This document shows positions 1,000 to 30,660 of a stretch of DNA of 64,000 nt, piece by piece. A model generated the notes under the pieces. That model searched no databases, was not told where the DNA came from, and saw only the letters and a list, made by a program, of their open reading frames with translations. The position numbers and the translations under genes were made by a program. The DNA comes from Acholeplasmatales bacterium. GTDB taxonomy: Bacteria; Bacillota_I; Bacilli_A; Acholeplasmatales; JAEDCM01. The stretch is taken from contig JAGCWW010000076.1 of NCBI GenBank assembly GCA_017961685.1, forward strand, positions 1 to 64,000. The letters are read 5' to 3'. Each line of letters begins with the position of its first letter. Position 1 is the first letter of the stretch.

Positions 1000-1986
1000 T
1001 TAATTTAAGTTCTCTTCATCCTTATCATAAAGTTCATGATAATATACTAAATCTTCAATCCACATCTTATCGGCTATTTCGTTTTCTTCTGATTTAGTAA
1101 TACCATATTTATCCATTAATAGCTTTGCTAGAAAATCAGTAGTCTTTTCAGCACCACTAATATTTAAGTGGTCTCCTCCACCATTATCTCTAACATCATA
1201 ATAATCAGTAGTCCCATCAAAACCTATTTCTTCTCTATAATCTTCAGCATCATAATAATCTACACCAACACTTTGTGTGTAGTTAACTACAGCATTATGT
1301 CTAGCATAATTCCATGTAGCTGATGAGAAAGATGTATAGAAGAATACTTCTATATCTTTTTCCTTACACATTTCAACAACTTGATCTAGTTGTGATTTAA
1401 TTCCCTTTTTGAAGTTTTCAGGTTCAGAATTAGGATCACCCATATAATCAGTTAATGTAGGAATTTGAACTCTTTTTCTAAAGATAAATCCTTTTAAAGC
1501 GTCTCTTGGGTAATCAGGAATTTGATATAAATTTTCAGCTTCCATATCCTTCCAGAAACAATGATATTTACCAACAAAATCACAGAACTTTTCCGCAACA
1601 TATGCTGTATCACTTAAATTCCTATAATATATTGCATCAGTTTCAACAATAACTACTTTTGGTTTTTGATACTTAAGTAGTTCTTTTAATTGACGCTTCA
1701 TACCAACACAGCTTTGTTTAGATACACCACAGTTATAGCTTCTAATACCATATTTTTCATACATATAATCTGGTGAAAAACATGAGAAAGCATCACTTGT
1801 ACCTATCATAACAACATCTAAACTATTCTTCTCTTCATCTTGATATCCTTTACCACGATAAAAACGTGTAGCCTCAGATCCTTTTAATGTTCTTGGAATA
1901 AACATAAATAAACTATAAAGGAATAATACTAGGACAATGAATATAAATAATGAAGCTTTTAGAATTCTTTGTTTTCTTAAACTCAT
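1000..1986 (-). CDS. Membrane-anchored SGNH-fold protein, DltD/AlgJ-like
   Basis: About 328 residues with one N-terminal membrane helix (roughly residues 8-30) and an extracytoplasmic domain. GTSDAF near residue 65 matches SGNH block I, with the nucleophilic Ser after GT. DHLNISGA near the C-terminus matches the Asp-x-x-His block, here as D-H-L-N. Such proteins act with an MBOAT partner in moving acyl or D-alanyl groups onto envelope polymers. It directly follows the MBOAT gene, whose stop codon overlaps its AGGAGGTG site. That site sets the ATG start, three codons inside the longest frame. The substrate is unknown. Confidence 0.75.
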   Translation of the reverse strand: MSLRKQRILKASLFIFIVLVLFLYSLFMFIPRTLKGSEATRFYRGKGYQDEEKNSLDVVMIGTSDAFSCFSPDYMYEKYGIRSYNCGVSKQSCVGMKRQLKELLKYQKPKVVIVETDAIYYRNLSDTAYVAEKFCDFVGKYHCFWKDMEAENLYQIPDYPRDALKGFIFRKRVQIPTLTDYMGDPNSEPENFKKGIKSQLDQVVEMCKEKDIEVFFYTSFSSATWNYARHNAVVNYTQSVGVDYYDAEDYREEIGFDGTTDYYDVRDNGGGDHLNISGAEKTTDFLAKLLMDKYGITKSEENEIADKMWIEDLVYYHELYDKDEENLN

Positions 1987-1998
1987 AATCCACACCTC

Positions 1999-3573
1999 CT
2001 AGAATTGACCATATACAGGATCTACAGGCGCATAGTTTGGCCCATATGTTCCAAAATAGAAAATAACAAGTATTAATAATAGATATAAAGCCCATCTAAT
2101 AACAACATGTCTTTTATCAACAAATTCTTCTCTTATGTTTTCATACTTAATATGCATAAAATCAACAAATACTAAGAAGGCAATTAATAATAACATAACA
2201 ATTAGTTCGCTTAATTCAATTACATTTGCGCTAACTAAGTTAGTTACACCACCACTAAAGAATCTAGAAATCATATTTACTGAATCATTAAGTGTTGCGG
2301 CTCTAAATATTAACATACCAATAGTTACAAGGATAAATGTTCTTGTAATTTGGAAACAAATGTATGCTTTATTATTTTTAAGCTTTTCATAATTTTTAAA
2401 TTTGTTCATTAATCCTTCAATTAATAAACCAATATCCATTATAACAAAATAATACATTCCATAAACAAAATACTTAACTCCACATCCATGCCATAAACCG
2501 CATACTACCCATACACAGAATAAGGCAATAGTTGATGGGATAAAGACAGATAAGAAATTCTTGTTTTTATTTCTTAAGCCCTTAGACATCTTCGTAATTG
2601 GCTTTGAGAAAGATACAGAATAGAAAATATATTCTTTTAGCCAAGCACCAAATGACATATGCCATCTACGCCAGAATTCACTAACAGTTCTTGAGAAGAA
2701 TGGTTTATCAAAGTTCTTTTGAAGCTTGAAACCAAACATTTCAGATACACCAAGTACCATTTCAATGATACCTGAGAATTCAGCATATAATTGAATTGTA
2801 TATAAAATAGCAGCACCAATAATAACAATACCAGAATAGTTATTGTAGTTTGTAAATACTTCTTGCGTGATGATATTTATTCTATCTGCAATAACAATCT
2901 TTTTAAAAATACCAAATAAGAATAATTGAAGACCATGTACCATATTTAAATAATCAAAGTCTCTTCCTTCAACAAGTTGAGGAGTTAACTCATCATATTT
3001 AGCAAATGGTCCTTCAAACATTTGTGGTAAGTATGACATAAATAAAGCAACATGTAAGAAGTTTCTATCTGCGCTATATTTACCTCTATATACATCTACA
3101 ACATAACCTATCGCATTTAGCGTATAGTAAGATAATCCTAGTGGAATTAAAACTATAAGAGTTGGGATGTTATAATCTATATGACACATATCAAAGAAAC
3201 CATTGAAGATTTCGCCAAATAGATTCAAGTATTTTAAGACAATTAGAAGTATAACATTAAATAAGACTCCTAAAATCATTAAGAGTTTCTTTTTCTTATT
3301 GTATTTTGCCTTTAAGGCTTTTCTATCATCTTTTTCTAATCCTTCTTTTTCTACTTCATACCTCTTATTATATTTATCCATTCCTATTCCAACAAAATAG
3401 ATACTTACTGTTGTTAGAATTAAGAATACTACTAGCCATTTACTAATTGTTATAAAAAGGCCATAACTAGCGATTAATAGCACAAAATATCTAAACTTTT
3501 TTGGCACTAAAATGTATATTAAAAAGACAATTGAAGCGAATAAGGCTAGAAAACCTATAGTCTCATAACCCAT
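1999..3573 (-). CDS. MBOAT-family membrane acyltransferase, DltB/AlgI-like
   Basis: A polytopic membrane protein of 524 residues with ten or more hydrophobic segments. It carries SEFWRRWHMSFGAWL and, later, CGLWHGCGVKYFVYG, the two His-bearing segments typical of MBOAT O-acyltransferases such as DltB and AlgI. In the Dlt pathway this protein takes an aminoacyl group from carrier-protein thioester and passes it across the membrane. Its neighbours are a carrier protein and an AMP ligase upstream and an SGNH protein downstream. The assignment as an envelope acyl-transfer channel is firm; D-alanine as the group moved is inference. Confidence 0.88.
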   Translation of the reverse strand: MGYETIGFLALFASIVFLIYILVPKKFRYFVLLIASYGLFITISKWLVVFLILTTVSIYFVGIGMDKYNKRYEVEKEGLEKDDRKALKAKYNKKKKLLMILGVLFNVILLIVLKYLNLFGEIFNGFFDMCHIDYNIPTLIVLIPLGLSYYTLNAIGYVVDVYRGKYSADRNFLHVALFMSYLPQMFEGPFAKYDELTPQLVEGRDFDYLNMVHGLQLFLFGIFKKIVIADRINIITQEVFTNYNNYSGIVIIGAAILYTIQLYAEFSGIIEMVLGVSEMFGFKLQKNFDKPFFSRTVSEFWRRWHMSFGAWLKEYIFYSVSFSKPITKMSKGLRNKNKNFLSVFIPSTIALFCVWVVCGLWHGCGVKYFVYGMYYFVIMDIGLLIEGLMNKFKNYEKLKNNKAYICFQITRTFILVTIGMLIFRAATLNDSVNMISRFFSGGVTNLVSANVIELSELIVMLLLIAFLVFVDFMHIKYENIREEFVDKRHVVIRWALYLLLILVIFYFGTYGPNYAPVDPVYGQF

Positions 3574-3617
3574 ATGACCAACTCCTTATTTTAAACACTA
3601 TAATTATACTACAAATA

Positions 3618-3642
3618 AAAAAATAATCAACGAGTGATTATT
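3618..3642 (-). terminator. Hairpin between the ACP and MBOAT genes
   Basis: AATAATCA-ACGAG-TGATTATT with an A/T-rich flank follows the ACP stop codon in the minus direction. It may be a leaky terminator that lowers expression of the MBOAT and SGNH genes relative to the ligase and carrier. Confidence 0.5.
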
Positions 3643-3870
3643 TTATTCTTCTTCTATTTTTTTAACTAATTCGTAGATAGTTTTTGCGGATGCAAAATTC
3701 TCAGGAATAACATAAGCTGGTGAAATTTCGATATCGAATTCATCTTCTAATTCTGTTACTAATCTAACGATATCAAAACTCTTTAAAAGTTTATGATTGA
3801 TTAAATCATCTTCCTTTTCGTAATCTACTGTTGGATTAATTCCTTTAAGTATTTCAATAACTCTATCCAT
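3643..3870 (-). CDS. Acyl/aminoacyl carrier protein, DltC-like
   Basis: A 75-residue acidic helical protein. LINHKLLKSFDIVRLV aligns with the helix II start of carrier proteins, where a Ser takes the 4'-phosphopantetheine arm. The usual D-S-L/F is K-S-F here, so the Ser is kept but the preceding Asp is replaced by Lys. It lies 9 bp downstream of the AMP ligase and upstream of the MBOAT gene, as DltC does between DltA and its membrane partners. It most likely carries the activated residue as a thioester. Confidence 0.82.
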   Translation of the reverse strand: MDRVIEILKGINPTVDYEKEDDLINHKLLKSFDIVRLVTELEDEFDIEISPAYVIPENFASAKTIYELVKKIEEE

Positions 3871-3879
3871 ATTATCCTC

Positions 3880-5409
3880 CTATAATTCTTTATAATGTGC
3901 TTTTAGATAAGCTCTATCAATTTTACCATTTAAGTTATATGTCATTTGTTTTACTCTAACATATCTATTTGGAATCATATAATCAGGAACTTTAGTTGCT
4001 AGATAATTTCTTATTTCTTCTTCTGTTAATCTTCCTTCATAAATGATAATTATTTCATCAACATCTTTATCATAAATGTTAATGCATGCCTTCATTTTAT
4101 CCATTGAACTAGCCGCAACATCTATTTCAGATAATTCAATACGATAGCCCATATGTTTTATTTGATTATCTTTTCTACCAGCATACATTAGTTCATTAAA
4201 TTCGTTATAATAAACTAAATCTCCAGTTCTATAAACATATTCATGATATGCCTTATTTAAGGGATTATTTACGAATGCTTGATCTGTTTTTTCTTTATTG
4301 TTATAATAACCCAAGCCAACAAATGGACTTCTTATTACTAATTCACCAATAGCATTCTTTTCAGTTACTAAATTATCATTATCATCTAAAACCATTGCAT
4401 CAACATTTTTACATCCATTACCAATAGGTAGTGTTTCATCATCACTAAATTCTCTATTAACTTTATAGAATGTACAAATATCTACTGTTTCTGTTGGACC
4501 AAATAGATTTGCATATAAACAGTTAATATGACGTCTCCAGTAATTTAAATGCTTTGTATGCATTATTTCTCCAGCAAATAATACTTTTTCTAAGTATTCA
4601 GGTTTAGCACAATCAAATACTTTTAAATTCGCTACTATAGCTAAAGCTGATGGAACCCAATAAATGGTATTAACTTTATATTCATTCATTACTTCTACTA
4701 ACTTAATTGGGAATGAGAAATAAAGCTTAGGAATAATTACATAAGTTGCACCCATAATTAATGTTGAATATAAATCAGAAACTGATGCGCTGAAATAGAA
4801 TTGTGTTTGACCACCAAAAATAGTTTTGTTTGTCATATCAAATTCAGTGATATACCAGTTAATATAACTAATTAAGTTTTGATGACTTATGATTGTTCCT
4901 TTTGGAGCACCTGATGAACCAGATGTGAATATCGCAAAGATTGGATCTGTTGTTACCATATCTTTTAAGATTTTATCTAGTTTTTCTTCATCTATATTAG
5001 TATTAATTGCTTCATCAAAATTGATTACATCAATACCTAAAAATGCCTTTTTAGCATCATCTACTAAATTGCTATTTGTAATAACCGCAAATGGATTAAT
5101 TGTATCTGCCATCATCTTAATTCTATCATTAGGCATTGATGGGTCAATTAATGTGTAATAGTTACCACTATAAATTGCGGATAACATCGAAATAACGACA
5201 TTTATTGATTTTTCCATATAAATGATAACTGCTTTATTACGCTTATTATATTTAGTTAAGAAACTTCCTATTTTTTTAGAACTATTTTGAAGGTTAGAAA
5301 ATGTAATATTAGTATTTAATACAGGATCAATAAAGGCAATTTTATCTTTATTTTCTAATACATTTTCATTAAATAATTCTATAAAGCTTTTATAGTATTT
5401 AAAAGCCAT
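3880..5409 (-). CDS. AMP-forming adenylation enzyme, DltA-like
   Basis: 509 residues, the usual DltA size. Adenylation motifs appear in order: FTSGSSGAPKG (P-loop), NLFGPTET, YRTGD, GRKDNQIKHMGYRIE and the C-terminal NGKIDR with the catalytic Lys. It should activate an amino or carboxylic acid as the adenylate and load the adjacent carrier protein. The ligase/carrier/MBOAT/SGNH order argues for D-alanine as in teichoic acid D-alanylation. The low similarity of the accessory genes leaves another substrate possible, and the selectivity pocket cannot be read with confidence by eye. Confidence 0.8.
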   Translation of the reverse strand: MAFKYYKSFIELFNENVLENKDKIAFIDPVLNTNITFSNLQNSSKKIGSFLTKYNKRNKAVIIYMEKSINVVISMLSAIYSGNYYTLIDPSMPNDRIKMMADTINPFAVITNSNLVDDAKKAFLGIDVINFDEAINTNIDEEKLDKILKDMVTTDPIFAIFTSGSSGAPKGTIISHQNLISYINWYITEFDMTNKTIFGGQTQFYFSASVSDLYSTLIMGATYVIIPKLYFSFPIKLVEVMNEYKVNTIYWVPSALAIVANLKVFDCAKPEYLEKVLFAGEIMHTKHLNYWRRHINCLYANLFGPTETVDICTFYKVNREFSDDETLPIGNGCKNVDAMVLDDNDNLVTEKNAIGELVIRSPFVGLGYYNNKEKTDQAFVNNPLNKAYHEYVYRTGDLVYYNEFNELMYAGRKDNQIKHMGYRIELSEIDVAASSMDKMKACINIYDKDVDEIIIIYEGRLTEEEIRNYLATKVPDYMIPNRYVRVKQMTYNLNGKIDRAYLKAHYKEL

Positions 5410-16358: not shown

Positions 16359-16388
16359 TTTACAACATTATTATATATGAGTTATAAT
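16359..16388 (+). promoter_or_regulatory. Promoter of the Crp/Fnr-type gene
   Basis: TTTACA (16359-16364) and TATAAT (16383-16388) lie 18 bp apart. The predicted start falls at about 16395, just before the palindrome at 16398-16411. Confidence 0.65.
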
Positions 16389-16397
16389 AATAATATC

Positions 16398-16411
16398 GTA
16401 ACATATGTTAC
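16398..16411. promoter_or_regulatory. Palindromic operator between importer and Crp/Fnr genes
   Basis: GTAACATATGTTAC is a perfect 14-bp palindrome between two divergent genes, at the start site of the regulator gene and upstream of the importer gene. Crp/Fnr dimers bind such dyads, so autoregulation and importer control are likely. Binding is inferred. Confidence 0.65.
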
Positions 16412-16427
16412 AAAGGGAGCGTTTTAT

Positions 16428-17024
16428 ATGAAAAACTTATTTGAAAATGCAAAGGACTTTGAAAAATACATTTATTATAAAGAATATAACAAAAATGCCC
16501 TTATTTTTTTAGAAGGTGAACAATGTAGAAATGTATGTATTGTTAAAAAAGGTGAGATCTCAATTACAACATCTACATATGATTCTTTAGTTGAAATAAA
16601 TAATTTAAAAGAAAATGAAATATTTGGTGATTCACTTATTTTTTCAACTGATAATAGATATTTAGGTAGTATTATGGCTGTTAAAGATACAACGCTTTGT
16701 ATTATAAGTAAAGATAATTGGTTAAAATTATTAGAGAATAAAGAAATCCTTAAAAACTATTTAGAAATAGTTAGTAATAAAGTATTTAAGATTCAATCTA
16801 AAGTTAAGATATTATCTCAAAAATCAATTAGGGAAAAAATATTATTCTATTTGATAACTGAATCTAAAAGAATAAATAAAAAGACTATTAGAATTAAATC
16901 TAAAGAGTCTTTAGCTTTATTTTTAAATGTGCCTCGCCCAAGCTTATCTAGAGAATTAATAAAACTTAAAGATGAAGGAATAATTGATTTTGATAGATAT
17001 TCTATAACTTTATTAGATAAATAA
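16428..17024 (+). CDS. Crp/Fnr-family transcription regulator
   Basis: 198 residues. Residues about 1-115 form a cyclic-nucleotide-binding-like beta-roll (LIFLEGEQCRNVCIVKKGEI, ENEIFGDSLIF). Residues about 135-198 form the winged HTH (SKESLALFLNVPRPSLSREL, IIDFDRYSITLLDK). There is no N-terminal Cys cluster like that of FNR, so oxygen sensing through an iron-sulfur cluster is unlikely; the ligand is unknown. AAAGGGAG lies 8 bp before the ATG; a much longer open frame upstream is antisense to the importer and rejected. It probably controls the divergent importer. Confidence 0.9.
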   Translation: MKNLFENAKDFEKYIYYKEYNKNALIFLEGEQCRNVCIVKKGEISITTSTYDSLVEINNLKENEIFGDSLIFSTDNRYLGSIMAVKDTTLCIISKDNWLKLLENKEILKNYLEIVSNKVFKIQSKVKILSQKSIREKILFYLITESKRINKKTIRIKSKESLALFLNVPRPSLSRELIKLKDEGIIDFDRYSITLLDK

Positions 17025-25847: not shown

Positions 25848-26447
25848 GTGCCAGAGATTAGAGAGCCTATAAAACAAACTTCAATCGAAAAAAAGAACAA
25901 AATAATAGATGCAGGGTTAAAAATCTTTAGTGAAAAAGGTTATTATAATACTACTACAGCTGAAATTGCTAAAGTTGCTGGAGTATCTACAGGTATAGTT
26001 TATCAATACTTTAAAGATAAAAAAGATATCTTAATTTATGCTGTTAAAAAGTATTATGATCGTCTATTTAATCCAATCGCATCAGAATTAGAGAAAATCA
26101 CTAAACTAAGCGATTTTGATGAACAAATGAAATCAGTTATCGATGTATCAATTAAGCTTCATAGAGCTAATAGTGTAGCTCATGAAGAAATGATTGCTAT
26201 GAGTCATTTAGATCCTGATATTCATCAATTATTTATTGAAAGTGAACATAGAATAATTGAAAGAATTGTTCAATTCTTAGAAAGCATTGATATAGATGTA
26301 GATCATATGCATGAAAAAGCACATATCGCATATAATATGGTAGAAAGCTTATCCCATGAATTTGTATATCATCAAGATGATGATGTTGATTATGATTTTT
26401 TGGTAAGTGAAACCGTTAGATTAATAAAAGCAATATTTGTTAATTAG
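25848..26447 (+). CDS. TetR-family repressor of the FtsX-type exporter
   Basis: 199 residues starting at GTG, 7 bp after AAGGAAGTG. Residues about 15-62 form the TetR HTH (KIIDAGLKIFSEKGYYNTTT, VAGVSTGIVYQYFKDKKDIL). The rest is the helical ligand-binding and dimer domain, with several His residues (MSHLDPDIHQLFIESEHRI). The same 16-bp dyad lies beside its own promoter and three times around the exporter promoter, so it very likely represses both and is released by the exported compound or a membrane stress signal. The ligand is unknown. Confidence 0.9.
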   Translation: MPEIREPIKQTSIEKKNKIIDAGLKIFSEKGYYNTTTAEIAKVAGVSTGIVYQYFKDKKDILIYAVKKYYDRLFNPIASELEKITKLSDFDEQMKSVIDVSIKLHRANSVAHEEMIAMSHLDPDIHQLFIESEHRIIERIVQFLESIDIDVDHMHEKAHIAYNMVESLSHEFVYHQDDDVDYDFLVSETVRLIKAIFVN

Positions 26448-26470
26448 GCTCAAAAATAGAGCCTTTTTTT
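26447..26470 (+). terminator. Terminator of the TetR gene
   Basis: GGCTC-AAAAATA-GAGCC followed by TTTTTTT, beginning within the TAG stop codon. Confidence 0.85.
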
Positions 26471-26484
26471 CTTATTAAAATAAA

Positions 26485-26513
26485 TTGTATATATTTTAAT
26501 AATTTAGTATAAT
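26485..26513 (+). promoter_or_regulatory. Promoter of the channel-like/CNBD/ligase-like operon
   Basis: TTGTAT (26485-26490) and TATAAT (26508-26513) lie 17 bp apart, 40 bp upstream of the first gene of the three-gene operon. Confidence 0.7.
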
Positions 26514-26553
26514 AGAATTGTATGGACTATATAAATTTAATGGGGGTGATTAA

Positions 26554-27693
26554 ATGAAAAAGCACCGTAGACGTATTTTTACAAAATACCATATAATAAT
26601 TTTTGTTACTTTGCTAACTATTTATATGGGACTAGTTGTAATAAATTATTTTGCACTAAAAAATAGTGGTGAGGATTGTTCATTTATAGACGTTTTATGG
26701 GTAGATATTTTAACTATCACAGGAAATGACTATGAATATATAACTACACCTGGAGCAAGATTAATAGGTATCTTCTTCTTGATTCTAAGCTTATTATTCT
26801 TATCTATCGTAACAGGTTATATTTCTTCACTATTAGTTGACCGTAAACTAAACTCAAAAAGGGGGCTTAAGAGAATGCAAAATCTAAAGAAACACATCAT
26901 TATATGTGGTTGGAAAAATGATATCAAATCACTAATCTTAGATATTTTAAGAAAAAATAAAAAATTGCCAATAGATCAAATCGTTGTTGTAACAAATGAG
27001 GATGTTGATAAAATACAAGCATTAAGAGATGATGCTGAATTAAAGGGCTTAAACATTTTAAAAGGTGATTACACACTAGAACAAACTTTAAATAATGTTA
27101 GTGCTAAATATGCATCTAAGGTATTAATTCTAGGAGAAAATCAAGAAAACCTAGATGCTGAGCTTGTTGATTCAAGAGTATTTGTTACAGCATTAATGTT
27201 TAGAAATATTAATTCAAGATGTCATATATGTGCTGAAATTAAAACAGAACGTTATAAGAATTATCTAGAAGCTCAAAACTGTGCTGAAGTTATTTATACA
27301 GATGAATATACAAGATATATTCTATCAACTTCAACAAACTATAGTGGTATTTCAAAAGTATTATCAAGTTTCTTGGATAATGGTGATGGTAAATCAGTTC
27401 AAATTGAAAAAATTGCCGATAAATGGATAGGTAAGCCATATATTGATTTATTTAATTGGTATAAACAAGAAAAAAATATTCTAGTAATTGGTATATTAGA
27501 AAATATGGGTGTTGAAAAAGAATTAAAGCATGAAATACTTGCTGAAGCTCAAAAATCAACTAATTATGGTGAGATTATACAAAAGATGCGTACTGTTAAA
27601 ACTCTAGAAACAAATCATCCATTACTAAACCCAAGTGATGATTATATTCTAGATAGAAATATGGGCGTAATAATTATAGGGGAGGAAATCTAA
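26554..27693 (+). CDS. Channel-like membrane protein with RCK/TrkA-N domain and unusual selectivity filter
   Basis: 379 residues. It contains one membrane helix (about 13-33), a pore-like re-entrant segment, a second helix (about 72-95) and then a Rossmann RCK/TrkA-N domain (HIIICGWKNDIKSLILDILR, SKVLILGENQENLD). The fold order is that of a two-helix potassium channel. Where TVGYGD is expected it reads DILTITGNDYEYITTPGARL, so the filter is strongly changed. It may conduct another ion or act as a sensor. GGGGGTG lies before the ATG. Its stop overlaps the start of the cyclic-nucleotide-binding gene (TAATG), so the two products are probably made together. Confidence 0.78.
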   Translation: MKKHRRRIFTKYHIIIFVTLLTIYMGLVVINYFALKNSGEDCSFIDVLWVDILTITGNDYEYITTPGARLIGIFFLILSLLFLSIVTGYISSLLVDRKLNSKRGLKRMQNLKKHIIICGWKNDIKSLILDILRKNKKLPIDQIVVVTNEDVDKIQALRDDAELKGLNILKGDYTLEQTLNNVSAKYASKVLILGENQENLDAELVDSRVFVTALMFRNINSRCHICAEIKTERYKNYLEAQNCAEVIYTDEYTRYILSTSTNYSGISKVLSSFLDNGDGKSVQIEKIADKWIGKPYIDLFNWYKQEKNILVIGILENMGVEKELKHEILAEAQKSTNYGEIIQKMRTVKTLETNHPLLNPSDDYILDRNMGVIIIGEEI

Positions 27694-28175
27694 TGGCTAA
27701 ATATGATGAATTAAAAAATTTCCCACTTCTTAAAAACTTAACTGATGATGATTTAAAAGCTTTAGAAGGCTATGTAACTGAAGTTAATTTTAATGAAAAT
27801 GATGATATCATCAAGGAAGGTGAAATAGGTGATACCTTATACCTACTTATTGAAGGCAAGGTAGATGTTATTAAAACAACTATTTTTGATGATGAATTTA
27901 TATGTGCTAGTCTAAATAGTGATATGCACTGTTTATTTGGTGAAATGGCTGTAATTGATAATGATAAGCGTAGTGCTACTATTAAAGCTAAAACACCTTG
28001 TAAAACACTATCTTTAAATAAAGAAGGCTTTGAAGAATATTGTAATAAATATCCTAAAGCTGGAATTGAATTATTAAAAATGATGAATATTAATATCGTT
28101 AGAAACTTAAGAATTGAAAACGAAAACCTAAAGCTTGTTTATCAAGCACTTATTGAAGAAATAGAAAATGATTAA
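27693..28175 (+). CDS. Stand-alone cyclic-nucleotide-binding-domain protein
   Basis: 160 residues, a single CNBD with no HTH and no membrane segment. The phosphate-binding cassette is FGEMAVIDNDKRSATIKA, keeping the FGE and the R-S-A-T of true cNMP binders. GEIGDTLYLLIEGKVDVI is the preceding beta-roll. The C-terminal helices (about 125-160) may contact a partner. The TAATG overlap with the channel-like gene suggests a split cyclic-nucleotide-gated channel: pore and RCK in one protein, the cNMP sensor in another. Which nucleotide it binds cannot be told. Confidence 0.85.
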   Translation: MAKYDELKNFPLLKNLTDDDLKALEGYVTEVNFNENDDIIKEGEIGDTLYLLIEGKVDVIKTTIFDDEFICASLNSDMHCLFGEMAVIDNDKRSATIKAKTPCKTLSLNKEGFEEYCNKYPKAGIELLKMMNINIVRNLRIENENLKLVYQALIEEIEND

Positions 28176-28188
28176 GAGGATTTAATAT

Positions 28189-30627
28189 ATGTTTAAAGTT
28201 GATGAACTACTTCTACTTGAAAACTTAACATATTTTTCAGATATAGCTCCCCTTTTTACAGTGTTAAACGCAGAAGGCTTAACTGTAAGAGAATATTTAG
28301 ATAAAATCAATTTTGATGAATTAATTGATGATAAGGATTATGCTAGTTATATGACTGGTTTTGATTTTAAAAACCTAATTTTAGCTATGAGAAAAAACAA
28401 AAATATTCTTAATTGTGAGATCCTAGAGCCTCACTTTGATCAAGCATATGGTGGAGGTGGCGGTTTATCTGTTGTTTTTATTAATGATGAATTAAAGGAA
28501 GCTATTGTTGCCTTTAGAGGTACAGCACTAAATGAATGGACAGATGATTTCTTAGGAGCTAATCAAATTGACTCCCTACAACAAATCAATGCCCTAGAAT
28601 GGTATAAAATGATTCATGATAAGCTTGATTTATCACGTTACCATGTTACTCTAACAGGACATTCTAAGGGTGGTAATAAAGCAAAATATATTACGATTCT
28701 TAACGATACAGTTGAACGTTGTGTTTCTTTTGATGGTCAAGGATTCTCTGATAAGTTCTTTGAAAACTATAAAAAAGAAATATCTACTCGTCAAAAAGTT
28801 ATTACAAACCATAACGTTGATTATGATTATGTAAATATCTTAATGAACGATATTGGTGAAAGAATTTATTATTATGGTTTTGATTATGGACGTGGAGGAT
28901 TTGCCGAAAGCCACTGTCCAAATACCTTCTTCGATTTCAAGGAGAATGGTGAATATGAAATGGTTGTAAATCCTTATGGACAAAGTCCTGAGATGCAAAT
29001 ATTAGACCAATTCTTTAATAGTTTAATTAGATCTGCGGTTAGTGATAAGGAACGTAGTGAAACTAATGAACTTTTAGGAATGTTGGTAGAAAAAGCATTC
29101 AAGATTGGTGTAGATGATTCTACTACTGAACAATATGTTAGTTTCTTATGCGATATGGTTGGAGATCCCAAATATTCGGATAATACAGCCTTTTTACTAA
29201 CATACATAATAAAATACTCACAAGAGAATAAAGGCTTCTTAAAAGCCTTAAAGGATATAATGACACATTTCAATGCACAAAGTATCGTAAATATCATTCA
29301 AATGGTTGAAGATATCGTTAATTCAAAGAAATTAAATAGATTAGTTAATCTATCTAACTTCCTAGTTCTTCACTTAAATAGAATCGTTGTTAAAAAGATT
29401 CAATCAACAGCAAGAAAAAAATACAATATCAATTTAACAAAGGAACAAATCAAGAAAGTATTAATTGTTATATCTATGGTTAAGGGAATGCTTAAGACTT
29501 TAGAAATTAATACTGATGGTTCTGATTTAGTAATTGATGATTATCTTGAAGAACAAGATTTGGTCTTACCAGAAAACTTAAATGTTGTAGTGCTTGCTGG
29601 TGGACTATCTAATGAAAGAAATATATCACTATATACAGGATATATGGTTTCAAATGCTTTAAAGAATAAAGGACATAATGTAATTTTACTAGATTCCTTT
29701 ATGGGCTATGAAGATTATGAATTAGTTATTGAAGATGCATTTAGTAATAGTGATAAATATAGTTTAAAATTAGATGATATTCCTAAAGATGTCCCCGATT
29801 TATGGGCAGTTAAAAAAAGAAGAGTTGATCAATCTAACTCCTTCTTTGGTCCAAACGTCTTACAAATATGTAGACAGGCTGATATTGTCTTTATAGCACT
29901 ACACGGGGCAAATGGTGAAAATGGAAAAGTTCAATCAACATTTGATCTTTTAGGTATTGATTATACAGGTAATGACTACTTCTCTAGTGCAATATCTTCT
30001 AATAAAATTATGTCTAAACAAATTTTAGTTAATAATGATATACCAGTACCTAAAGGTTATATCATTGAAAAGAATGATGATATAGTTGAACCAAGTGTTC
30101 ATAATATAAATTATCCTGTAATAGTTAAACCAAATAATGGTGGAATTGGCTTAGGTGTAAGTATTGCTACAGAAATAATATCCTTTAAAAAAGCGCTTAA
30201 GGAAGCCTTTAGATGGGAAAGTAGTGTTATAGTTGAAGAATATGTAAGTGGTAGAGAATTTAAGGTAAGTACTATTAATGGTAAGGCTATGCCTGTACTT
30301 GAAGTATTACCACTTAATACAGCTGATTCTTCTACTGGTAAGAGATTATCAGGATCTAGAGATAAGAAATGTCCAGCTAATATTTCCGCTAAGCTTGCTA
30401 AGGTTTTAATGCAAAAGGCTGAAGTTGCTAGTGCTTGTCTAGGTTTAAAAGCATACTCTAAGGTTGATTTTATTGTTAGAAATGATGAATCATTTGTATG
30501 TCTAGAATGTGATTCACATCCACACCTTAATTCTGGTTCAGATTTCATAACTGAAGCTAATGAAATAAATATGAGCTTTGATGAAGTATGTGTTAAAATA
30601 CTAGAACTAAGTTTACTTAAAAATTAA
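28189..30627 (+). CDS. Fusion of a lipase-like (Mbeg1/DUF2974-like) domain and a D-Ala-D-Ala-ligase-like ATP-grasp domain
   Basis: 812 residues in one uninterrupted frame. Residues about 1-330 resemble Mbeg1-like alpha/beta hydrolases: IVAFRGTALNEWTDDF and the nucleophile elbow TLTGHSKGGNKA near residue 157. A helical linker follows. Residues about 462-812 are D-Ala-D-Ala-ligase-like: VVVLAGGLSNERNISLYTG, ALHGANGENGKVQSTFDLLG, YPVIVKPNNGGIGLGV, VEEYVSGREFKVS and VDFIVRNDESFVCLECD. The metal-binding E-x-N is E-x-D, and the family's NTLPG stretch is replaced by SHPHLNSGS, so a different ligation is likely. It is third in an operon with channel-like and cNMP-binding genes. Confidence 0.82.
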   Translation: MFKVDELLLLENLTYFSDIAPLFTVLNAEGLTVREYLDKINFDELIDDKDYASYMTGFDFKNLILAMRKNKNILNCEILEPHFDQAYGGGGGLSVVFINDELKEAIVAFRGTALNEWTDDFLGANQIDSLQQINALEWYKMIHDKLDLSRYHVTLTGHSKGGNKAKYITILNDTVERCVSFDGQGFSDKFFENYKKEISTRQKVITNHNVDYDYVNILMNDIGERIYYYGFDYGRGGFAESHCPNTFFDFKENGEYEMVVNPYGQSPEMQILDQFFNSLIRSAVSDKERSETNELLGMLVEKAFKIGVDDSTTEQYVSFLCDMVGDPKYSDNTAFLLTYIIKYSQENKGFLKALKDIMTHFNAQSIVNIIQMVEDIVNSKKLNRLVNLSNFLVLHLNRIVVKKIQSTARKKYNINLTKEQIKKVLIVISMVKGMLKTLEINTDGSDLVIDDYLEEQDLVLPENLNVVVLAGGLSNERNISLYTGYMVSNALKNKGHNVILLDSFMGYEDYELVIEDAFSNSDKYSLKLDDIPKDVPDLWAVKKRRVDQSNSFFGPNVLQICRQADIVFIALHGANGENGKVQSTFDLLGIDYTGNDYFSSAISSNKIMSKQILVNNDIPVPKGYIIEKNDDIVEPSVHNINYPVIVKPNNGGIGLGVSIATEIISFKKALKEAFRWESSVIVEEYVSGREFKVSTINGKAMPVLEVLPLNTADSSTGKRLSGSRDKKCPANISAKLAKVLMQKAEVASACLGLKAYSKVDFIVRNDESFVCLECDSHPHLNSGSDFITEANEINMSFDEVCVKILELSLLKN

Positions 30628-30631
30628 GATA

Positions 30632-30660
30632 AAAAAATAAGTCCGGTTGGACTTATTTTT
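30632..30660. terminator. Bidirectional terminator
   Basis: AATAAGTCC-GGTT-GGACTTATT, flanked by A-run and T-run, lies between the convergent ligase-like fusion gene and glyA. Confidence 0.8.

Follow-up and report, generated by a model that had tools for sequence, protein, structure and literature searches.

The window analyzed here, a stretch of 64,000 nucleotides at the start of contig JAGCWW010000076.1 from an Acholeplasmatales bacterium (assembly GCA_017961685.1), carries three adjacent genes. They encode an ion channel with two transmembrane helices (2TM) and an RCK domain, a stand-alone protein with a cyclic-nucleotide-binding domain (CNBD), and a fusion of a lipase-like hydrolase with an ATP-grasp ligase. 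Their host is a rumen-type bacterium without cell-wall genes. On balance, we think it probable that the three genes act together, forming the effector arm of a pathway that runs on a cyclic nucleotide (most likely cyclic AMP, cAMP) and feeds the channel, the lipase-ligase, or both.

The layout had been put forward in an original prediction made from the sequence, and a direct re-reading of positions 26554-30627 bears it out. All three open reading frames (ORFs) lie on the same strand, those of the channel and the CNBD protein share one base (TAATG), and 13 bp precede the fusion ORF. The domain reading stands as well, with profile searches matching a Slo-like RCK, a cNMP_binding domain, a hydrolase, and Ddl-type domains. 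The genes and their main features, with amino acid (aa) positions, are as follows.

26554-27693, + strand: 2TM + single-RCK ion channel gene (379-aa ORF)
26722-26733, + strand: selectivity-filter motif GNDY (aa 57-60), invariant in 29/29 homologs
27693-28175, + strand: stand-alone CNBD protein gene (160-aa ORF)
27936-27980, + strand: phosphate-binding cassette FGEMAVIDNDKRSAT (aa 82-96), with G83, E84, R93, and S94 in 31/31 homologs
28189-30627, + strand: lipase/ATP-grasp fusion gene (812 aa in one open frame; full-length relatives with 45-66% identity in many genomes)
28189-28983, + strand: N-terminal lipase-like alpha/beta hydrolase (aa 1-265), PF11187 (Mbeg1-like), E 5.1e-11
28984-29508, + strand: helical middle region (aa 266-440), helices predicted at 267-437 with low local confidence
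29575-30615, + strand: Ddl-like ATP-grasp domain (aa 463-809), PF01820/PF07478, with K606, K647, E683, and the metal residues D760/E773/D775 kept

Conservation and boundaries of the gene trio

When 84,980 named genomes were scanned, the fusion turned up at 36 loci, 34 of which have enough upstream sequence to judge gene order. Channel, CNBD protein, and fusion occur in this order and on one strand in 26 of these 34, mostly in rumen Lachnospiraceae and otherwise in metagenome-assembled genomes (MAGs) of Acholeplasmatales and Bacillales. The order that the original prediction had suggested looking for in other genomes is therefore kept, and the genes are not always scattered. Of the 26 trio loci, 14 have overlapping channel and CNBD genes; the gap between CNBD and fusion genes is at most 60 bp in 17, and 8 have an extra 231-aa gene between the two. 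Within our genome collection, two congeners of the window genome have the same trio, the fusion gene of one reaching a contig end. The Anaeroplasma bactoclasticum ATCC 27112 genome (G037, L092) has adjoining channel and CNBD genes on one contig and the fusion on another. Every channel gene with enough downstream sequence, that of Anaeroplasma included, has a CNBD gene 3' of it.

The genes that flank the trio vary between lineages, and pairwise distances of the channel correlate with those of the fusion (rho 0.87; 0/500 permutations as high). The cassette is thus passed on as a whole. Few genomes have the channel: it was matched in 2/299 sampled Lachnospiraceae and, at E < 1e-30, in 2/395 genomes of the window's own class. 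Searches of plasmids and of viral contigs gave no match to it, and the fusion matched phage sequences only in the generic Ddl domain; on these grounds we rejected mobile-element cargo as an explanation.

That channel, CNBD protein, and fusion form a conserved functional unit rather than a chance arrangement is well supported. The opposite reading, a chance or hitch-hiking neighborhood without joint function in which the ligase is an ordinary Ddl, can draw only on the split in Anaeroplasma and on fusions that occur alone. The recurrence of the order across two classes amid unrelated flanks speaks against it, as do the lost Ddl residues and absent Mur ligases described below, and we consider it highly improbable.

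Three further features lie at the boundaries of the locus.

26446-26464, + strand: intrinsic terminator of the upstream TetR gene (6-bp stem, 4 G-C pairs, T tract)
26485-26513, + strand: promoter-like site TTGTAT (26485-26490), 17 bp, TATAAT (26508-26513), read directly
30633-30660, no strand assigned: near-symmetrical 12-bp stem-loop, scored on the - strand, between the fusion gene and the glyA-like gene that converges on it

The site that the original prediction took for a single promoter of the trio is present as a sequence but is weak evidence for a promoter: its -35 element matches 3/6 consensus bases, and it was not listed in a consensus promoter scan, which found 27 sites in the window versus 35.3 in shuffled sequence. 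Better evidence for a self-contained unit comes from the terminator that cuts off the TetR gene, the stem-loop 3' of the fusion, and the recurrence of the gene order elsewhere.

Channel and cyclic-nucleotide-binding protein

The channel has one RCK match (aa 111-226), to the Slo-like RCK family PF22614 (E 7.7e-12). Its structure model places TM1 at 2-37, a pore helix at 44-55, and TM2 at 66-109, followed by the RCK domain. The best Foldseek match of this model is MthK over the whole chain (E 1.7e-13), and the best sequence match among solved structures is the RCK of CASTOR (E 2.4e-5). The filter lies in the context [AT]x[AT]GNDY in the channel homologs, which is neither TVGYG nor the filter of CASTOR. 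The latter reads AD265S(A)GNHA, and CASTOR is reported to be Ca2+-selective with Asp265 essential (PMC6697748). We conjecture that the channel, lacking the K+ signature filter, passes another mix of cations, possibly including Ca2+.

A channel of this kind could also serve ion or osmotic homeostasis, regulating volume or membrane potential while the lipase-ligase remodels lipids after stress and cAMP acts as a general stress signal. RCK channels are ion-gated, which fits this proposal, and the fusion of genome G053 has SpoIIE phosphatase, STAS, and Na+/H+ exchanger genes nearby. That neighborhood, however, is not conserved at other loci, and we regard the proposal as quite unlikely.

The CNBD protein matches PF00027 (cNMP_binding) over aa 31-120 (E 8.5e-17), and the profile search of its 160 aa found neither a helix-turn-helix (HTH) nor a transmembrane domain. 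Its target must therefore be another protein. Across the family, the cassette follows the CRP-like pattern FGEMA..D.D..RSAT, with the Glu and Arg present in 31/31 homologs. The RSA of this cassette is also the CRP reading, and this match leads us to favor cAMP; the ligand would then be a cyclic nucleotide, most likely cAMP. A second possible cyclic-nucleotide receptor, a CRP-type regulator with CNBD and HTH_Crp_2 domains, is encoded elsewhere in the window (16386-17021, + strand).

The lipase-ligase fusion

The lipase half contains a GHSKGG motif with nucleophile S159, the histidine H242, and either D213 or D221 as the acid; S159, D213, D221, and H242 are invariant in 34/34 family members. Judged by these residues, the "hydrolase" of the original prediction is a Ser-Asp-His lipase. 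A sequence search of the PDB with this half gave no match. The same genome scan that returned the fusion also returned stand-alone lipase relatives of 450-600 aa, which have the middle region in common with it, their matches reaching about residue 450.

Several of these stand-alone relatives in Lachnospiraceae sit among WXG100, YukD, and FtsK/EssC-type genes. A partner gene lies directly upstream of the stand-alone lipase in 32/39 cases, and its product has a hydrophobic N terminus at 9/10 loci with WXG-like neighbors versus 1/29 without them (the signal was judged by N-terminal hydrophobicity, a simple lipobox pattern being unreliable). The optional 231-aa gene of eight trio loci encodes a signal-less homolog of this partner; the protein matched no Pfam family. 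Type VII genes, present at loci of the stand-alone relatives, were not seen at the trio loci. The stand-alone arrangement is that of TslA, a type VII-secreted lipase toxin, with its immunity lipoprotein, TilA (PMC10730906). TslA harms cells only from the outside, which its authors tentatively put down to too little Ca2+ in the cytosol; Ca2+ dependence is stated for TelC only (PMC10730906). TslA-like lipases with an upstream partner gene make up a family in Lachnospiraceae and Erysipelotrichaceae (L097-L141); some lie in type VII loci, and some, from Butyrivibrio and Pseudobutyrivibrio, end in a hydrophobic C-terminal tail and have a partner that lacks a signal.

These relatives raise the question of whether the fusion is a domesticated toxin serving as a suicide or defense effector. 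The lipase would then be an intracellular enzyme of type VII origin and the 231-aa gene a cytosolic inhibitor, while channel and CNBD protein would make cAMP a trigger of membrane damage, as in Pycsar or CBASS. The type VII neighbors and signal-bearing upstream partner of the stand-alone relatives, which reproduce the TslA/TilA layout (PMC10730906), agree with this idea, as do the signal-less partner homolog and the universal lipase triad. However, the inhibitor-like gene is missing from most trio loci, and the cyclase associated with the trio (see below) is a CHASE2 membrane sensor that is usually distant rather than an adjacent PycC. The absence of the channel from plasmids and viral contigs, and of the fusion from phages beyond the generic Ddl domain, also counts against a defense role. 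Altogether, we judge this explanation unlikely. PADLOC matched only the generic CNBD, and a known defense system was rejected.

The C-terminal half of the fusion matches Dala_Dala_lig_N (PF01820, E 2.3e-21) and Dala_Dala_lig_C (PF07478, E 2.5e-24), and Foldseek places its model in the Ddl fold (DdlA, E 4.5e-27). The equivalents of K97, K144, E180, E187, D257, and E270 (Escherichia coli DdlB numbering) are kept in all or most family members. The substrate-pocket residues of Ddl are changed: S150 is Ile in 29/34, Y216 is Tyr in none (T/S instead), R255 is Lys in 27/34, N272 is Asp in 32/34, and G276 is mostly Gln or Glu. This pattern reads as a coherent new pocket rather than random decay. The ligase half also scores below the curated NCBIfam cut-offs for Ddl (222 bits versus 243 for NF002378; 198.3 versus 245.65 for TIGR01205). 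Searches for Mur_ligase_M found no match in the window genus (G000-G002, 72-83% complete) and one folC-sized match each in G037 and G053 (98% complete), whereas walled relatives have at least 5 such matches and a separate Ddl near a Mur ligase.

The original prediction had seen in the D-Ala-D-Ala-ligase-like fusion a hint of envelope or peptide chemistry. That part is not supported: cell-wall chemistry is unlikely because the D-Ala-binding residues are lost and the host genomes lack Mur ligases, and on the same evidence, together with the cut-offs, we rejected an ordinary cell-wall Ddl. A dead pseudo-enzyme was rejected for the trio lineages, in which ATP and metal residues are conserved, and is likely in one channel-less clade. 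Elsewhere in the window, in a genome that gave no Mur ligase match, a dlt-like cluster (1000-5409, - strand) encodes an AMP-binding DltA-like protein, an MBOAT DltB-like protein, and a possible DltD-like protein; its NCBIfam Dlt scores lie well below curated cut-offs, and D-alanylation is uncertain.

Alternatively, the fusion may be a bifunctional metabolic enzyme, its two halves (lipase and ATP-grasp) forming and cleaving a single amide or acyl product, with the CNBD protein regulating the enzyme rather than the channel. The conserved hydrolase-ligase fusion, the intact ATP and metal residues of the trio lineages, and the family-specific pocket (S150 to I, Y216 to T/S, R255 to K, G276 to Q) would all suit such an enzyme. 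Yet the CNBD gene always lies 3' of the channel, even when the fusion is located at another site, so the CNBD protein goes with the channel first, and the lone fusions of one clade retain the lipase and lose the metal site. We find this account improbable. Full-length fusions also occur in two MAGs of Candidatus Minthosoma that are listed under Bacteroidota (L087, L121), there without a channel or cyclase match, which reflects either cross-phylum transfer or mislabeled bins.

A probable cyclic-nucleotide pathway and related systems

In a 61-genome set of relatives, a class III cyclase with CHASE2 and transmembrane regions (about 600-660 aa) was found in 5/5 fusion-bearing genomes and 0/56 others, which gave weak, short matches only. 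Across Clostridia, 22/26 channel-bearing genomes have a class III cyclase versus 52/297 sampled Lachnospiraceae without the channel, counts that are not phylogenetically independent. The cyclase of the window genome heads an operon with a xylose-isomerase-like (AP_endonuc_2) TIM barrel and a GAF-HD protein (L152:3798-7928, contig C22 of G000). The channel-CNBD pair of Anaeroplasma and the G053 fusion likewise have the TIM-barrel gene as a neighbor, whether or not the GAF-HD gene comes with it. At one locus (L095), the trio, FecR, GAF-HD, TIM-barrel, and CHASE2-cyclase genes all lie within 18 kb, the cyclase 5 kb from the trio. The shared cyclase-operon genes and the L095 locus are the best evidence for placing the trio in a cyclic-nucleotide pathway; the cyclic-nucleotide link of the original prediction is strengthened by this locus and by the co-occurrence. 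The cyclase/TIM-barrel/GAF-HD operon is itself an undescribed signaling operon, found also in Lachnospiraceae (L154), there with FecR.

Several points weigh against the trio as the effector arm of such a pathway. Seven genomes have the fusion without channel or CNBD gene, and the enzyme must therefore be useful by itself. Four channel-bearing draft genomes have no cyclase match, and many Lachnospiraceae have the cyclase without the trio; the cyclase therefore serves other targets too. Confidence in the structure model of the channel is modest (pLDDT 70.7, pTM 0.44). The metal residues D760/E773/D775 are intact in 27/27 fusions from channel-bearing genomes versus 2/7 from channel-lacking ones, a correlation that amounts to about one event on the tree followed by varied decay, is suggestive only, and leaves an independent-pairs test without power. 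Ligase decay as statistical proof of coupling was accordingly dropped.

Co-occurrence and domain content suggest that the CHASE2 cyclase, usually encoded elsewhere in the genome, would sense an outside signal and make cAMP. The 160-aa protein would bind it through its cassette and, given the near-universal gene pairing, may regulate the co-translated 2TM-RCK channel as a subunit detached from it. The channel would open to a cation influx, possibly of Ca2+. The lipase-ligase would be an enzymatic output acting on a membrane lipid or a product of it, its lipase half perhaps descended from, or shared with, type VII secretion lipases and its ATP-grasp pocket altered. We infer the ligand, ion, substrates, and ligase product of this scheme, as well as the order and direction of control. 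If TslA is harmless inside the cell because cytosolic Ca2+ is low (PMC10730906), the channel would have a direct role in activating the lipase. In its most specific form, cAMP made upon the outside signal would make the detached CNBD protein open a CASTOR/MthK-like channel for cations, possibly Ca2+. The influx would activate a cytosolic, toxin-descended lipase, and the ATP-grasp ligase fused to it would form a new lipid or acyl product, in a system shared horizontally by walled and wall-less bacteria. This complete chain we consider rather unlikely.

The open literature searched (subscription journals lay outside the search) held no earlier description of the channel/CNBD/lipase-ligase combination. 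All parts have known folds, and the combination is best seen as a variant of cyclic-nucleotide-regulated channel systems, a new pathway being the less probable case. If the effector-arm reading is true, the trio would be a new form of bacterial cyclic-nucleotide-regulated channel, its sensor split off as a protein of its own and tied by gene order to a lipase-ligase. It would bring together three fields that seldom meet: bacterial cAMP signaling, bacterial channels that have unusual filters and are related to plant symbiosis channels, and the intracellular use of lipases from the type VII toxin group. An enzyme derived from D-Ala-D-Ala ligase would be reused where no peptidoglycan ligases were found, and the annotation "D-alanine--D-alanine ligase" is misleading here. 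Other genes in the window include one for a RES-domain protein (PF08808; 57643-58428, - strand), of a family known from toxin-antitoxin pairs, and one for a MORN-repeat protein (PF02493; 6270-7178, - strand).

Each part of the trio resembles a known system and departs from it. The fusion shares with D-alanine--D-alanine ligase the fold, ATP-site lysines, and Mg2+-binding acidic residues, but it has lost the equivalents of S150, Y216, R255, N272, and G276, carries a lipase, and occurs in hosts without Mur ligases. Glutathionylspermidine synthetase/amidase likewise combines an ATP-grasp ligase and a hydrolase in one chain, although its hydrolase fold differs. TslA/Tsl1 with TilA (PMC10730906) has a similar layout: an N-terminal GxSxG lipase precedes a helical region, which in the fusion family is predicted with low local confidence and may or may not correspond to the LXG-like targeting domain at the C terminus of Tsl1 lipases, and in the stand-alone relatives the partner gene lies directly 5'. 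Here, however, the lipase is fused to an ATP-grasp domain, the trio loci lack type VII genes, and the partner is optional and signal-less. Pycsar has an adjacent PycC cyclase and a CNBD-fused effector, whereas here only the CNBD matches and the cyclase is of the CHASE2 type and usually distant. MthK, a 2TM + RCK Ca2+-gated K+ channel, has the same whole-chain architecture of a 2TM pore followed by one RCK; in our channel, GNDY replaces the K+ signature, the RCK is Slo/CASTOR-like, and a CNBD gene is paired with it. CASTOR/POLLUX/DMI1 are alike in RCK sequence and in a G-N within a non-TVGYG filter, but they have two tandem RCK domains where this channel has one, and the Asp265 position of CASTOR is missing from [AT]x[AT]GNDY. 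Finally, SthK-type prokaryotic channels also couple a cyclic-nucleotide-binding domain to a channel, but theirs is a 6TM pore, whereas here the CNBD forms a protein of its own, encoded by its own gene, and the pore is of the 2TM-RCK type.

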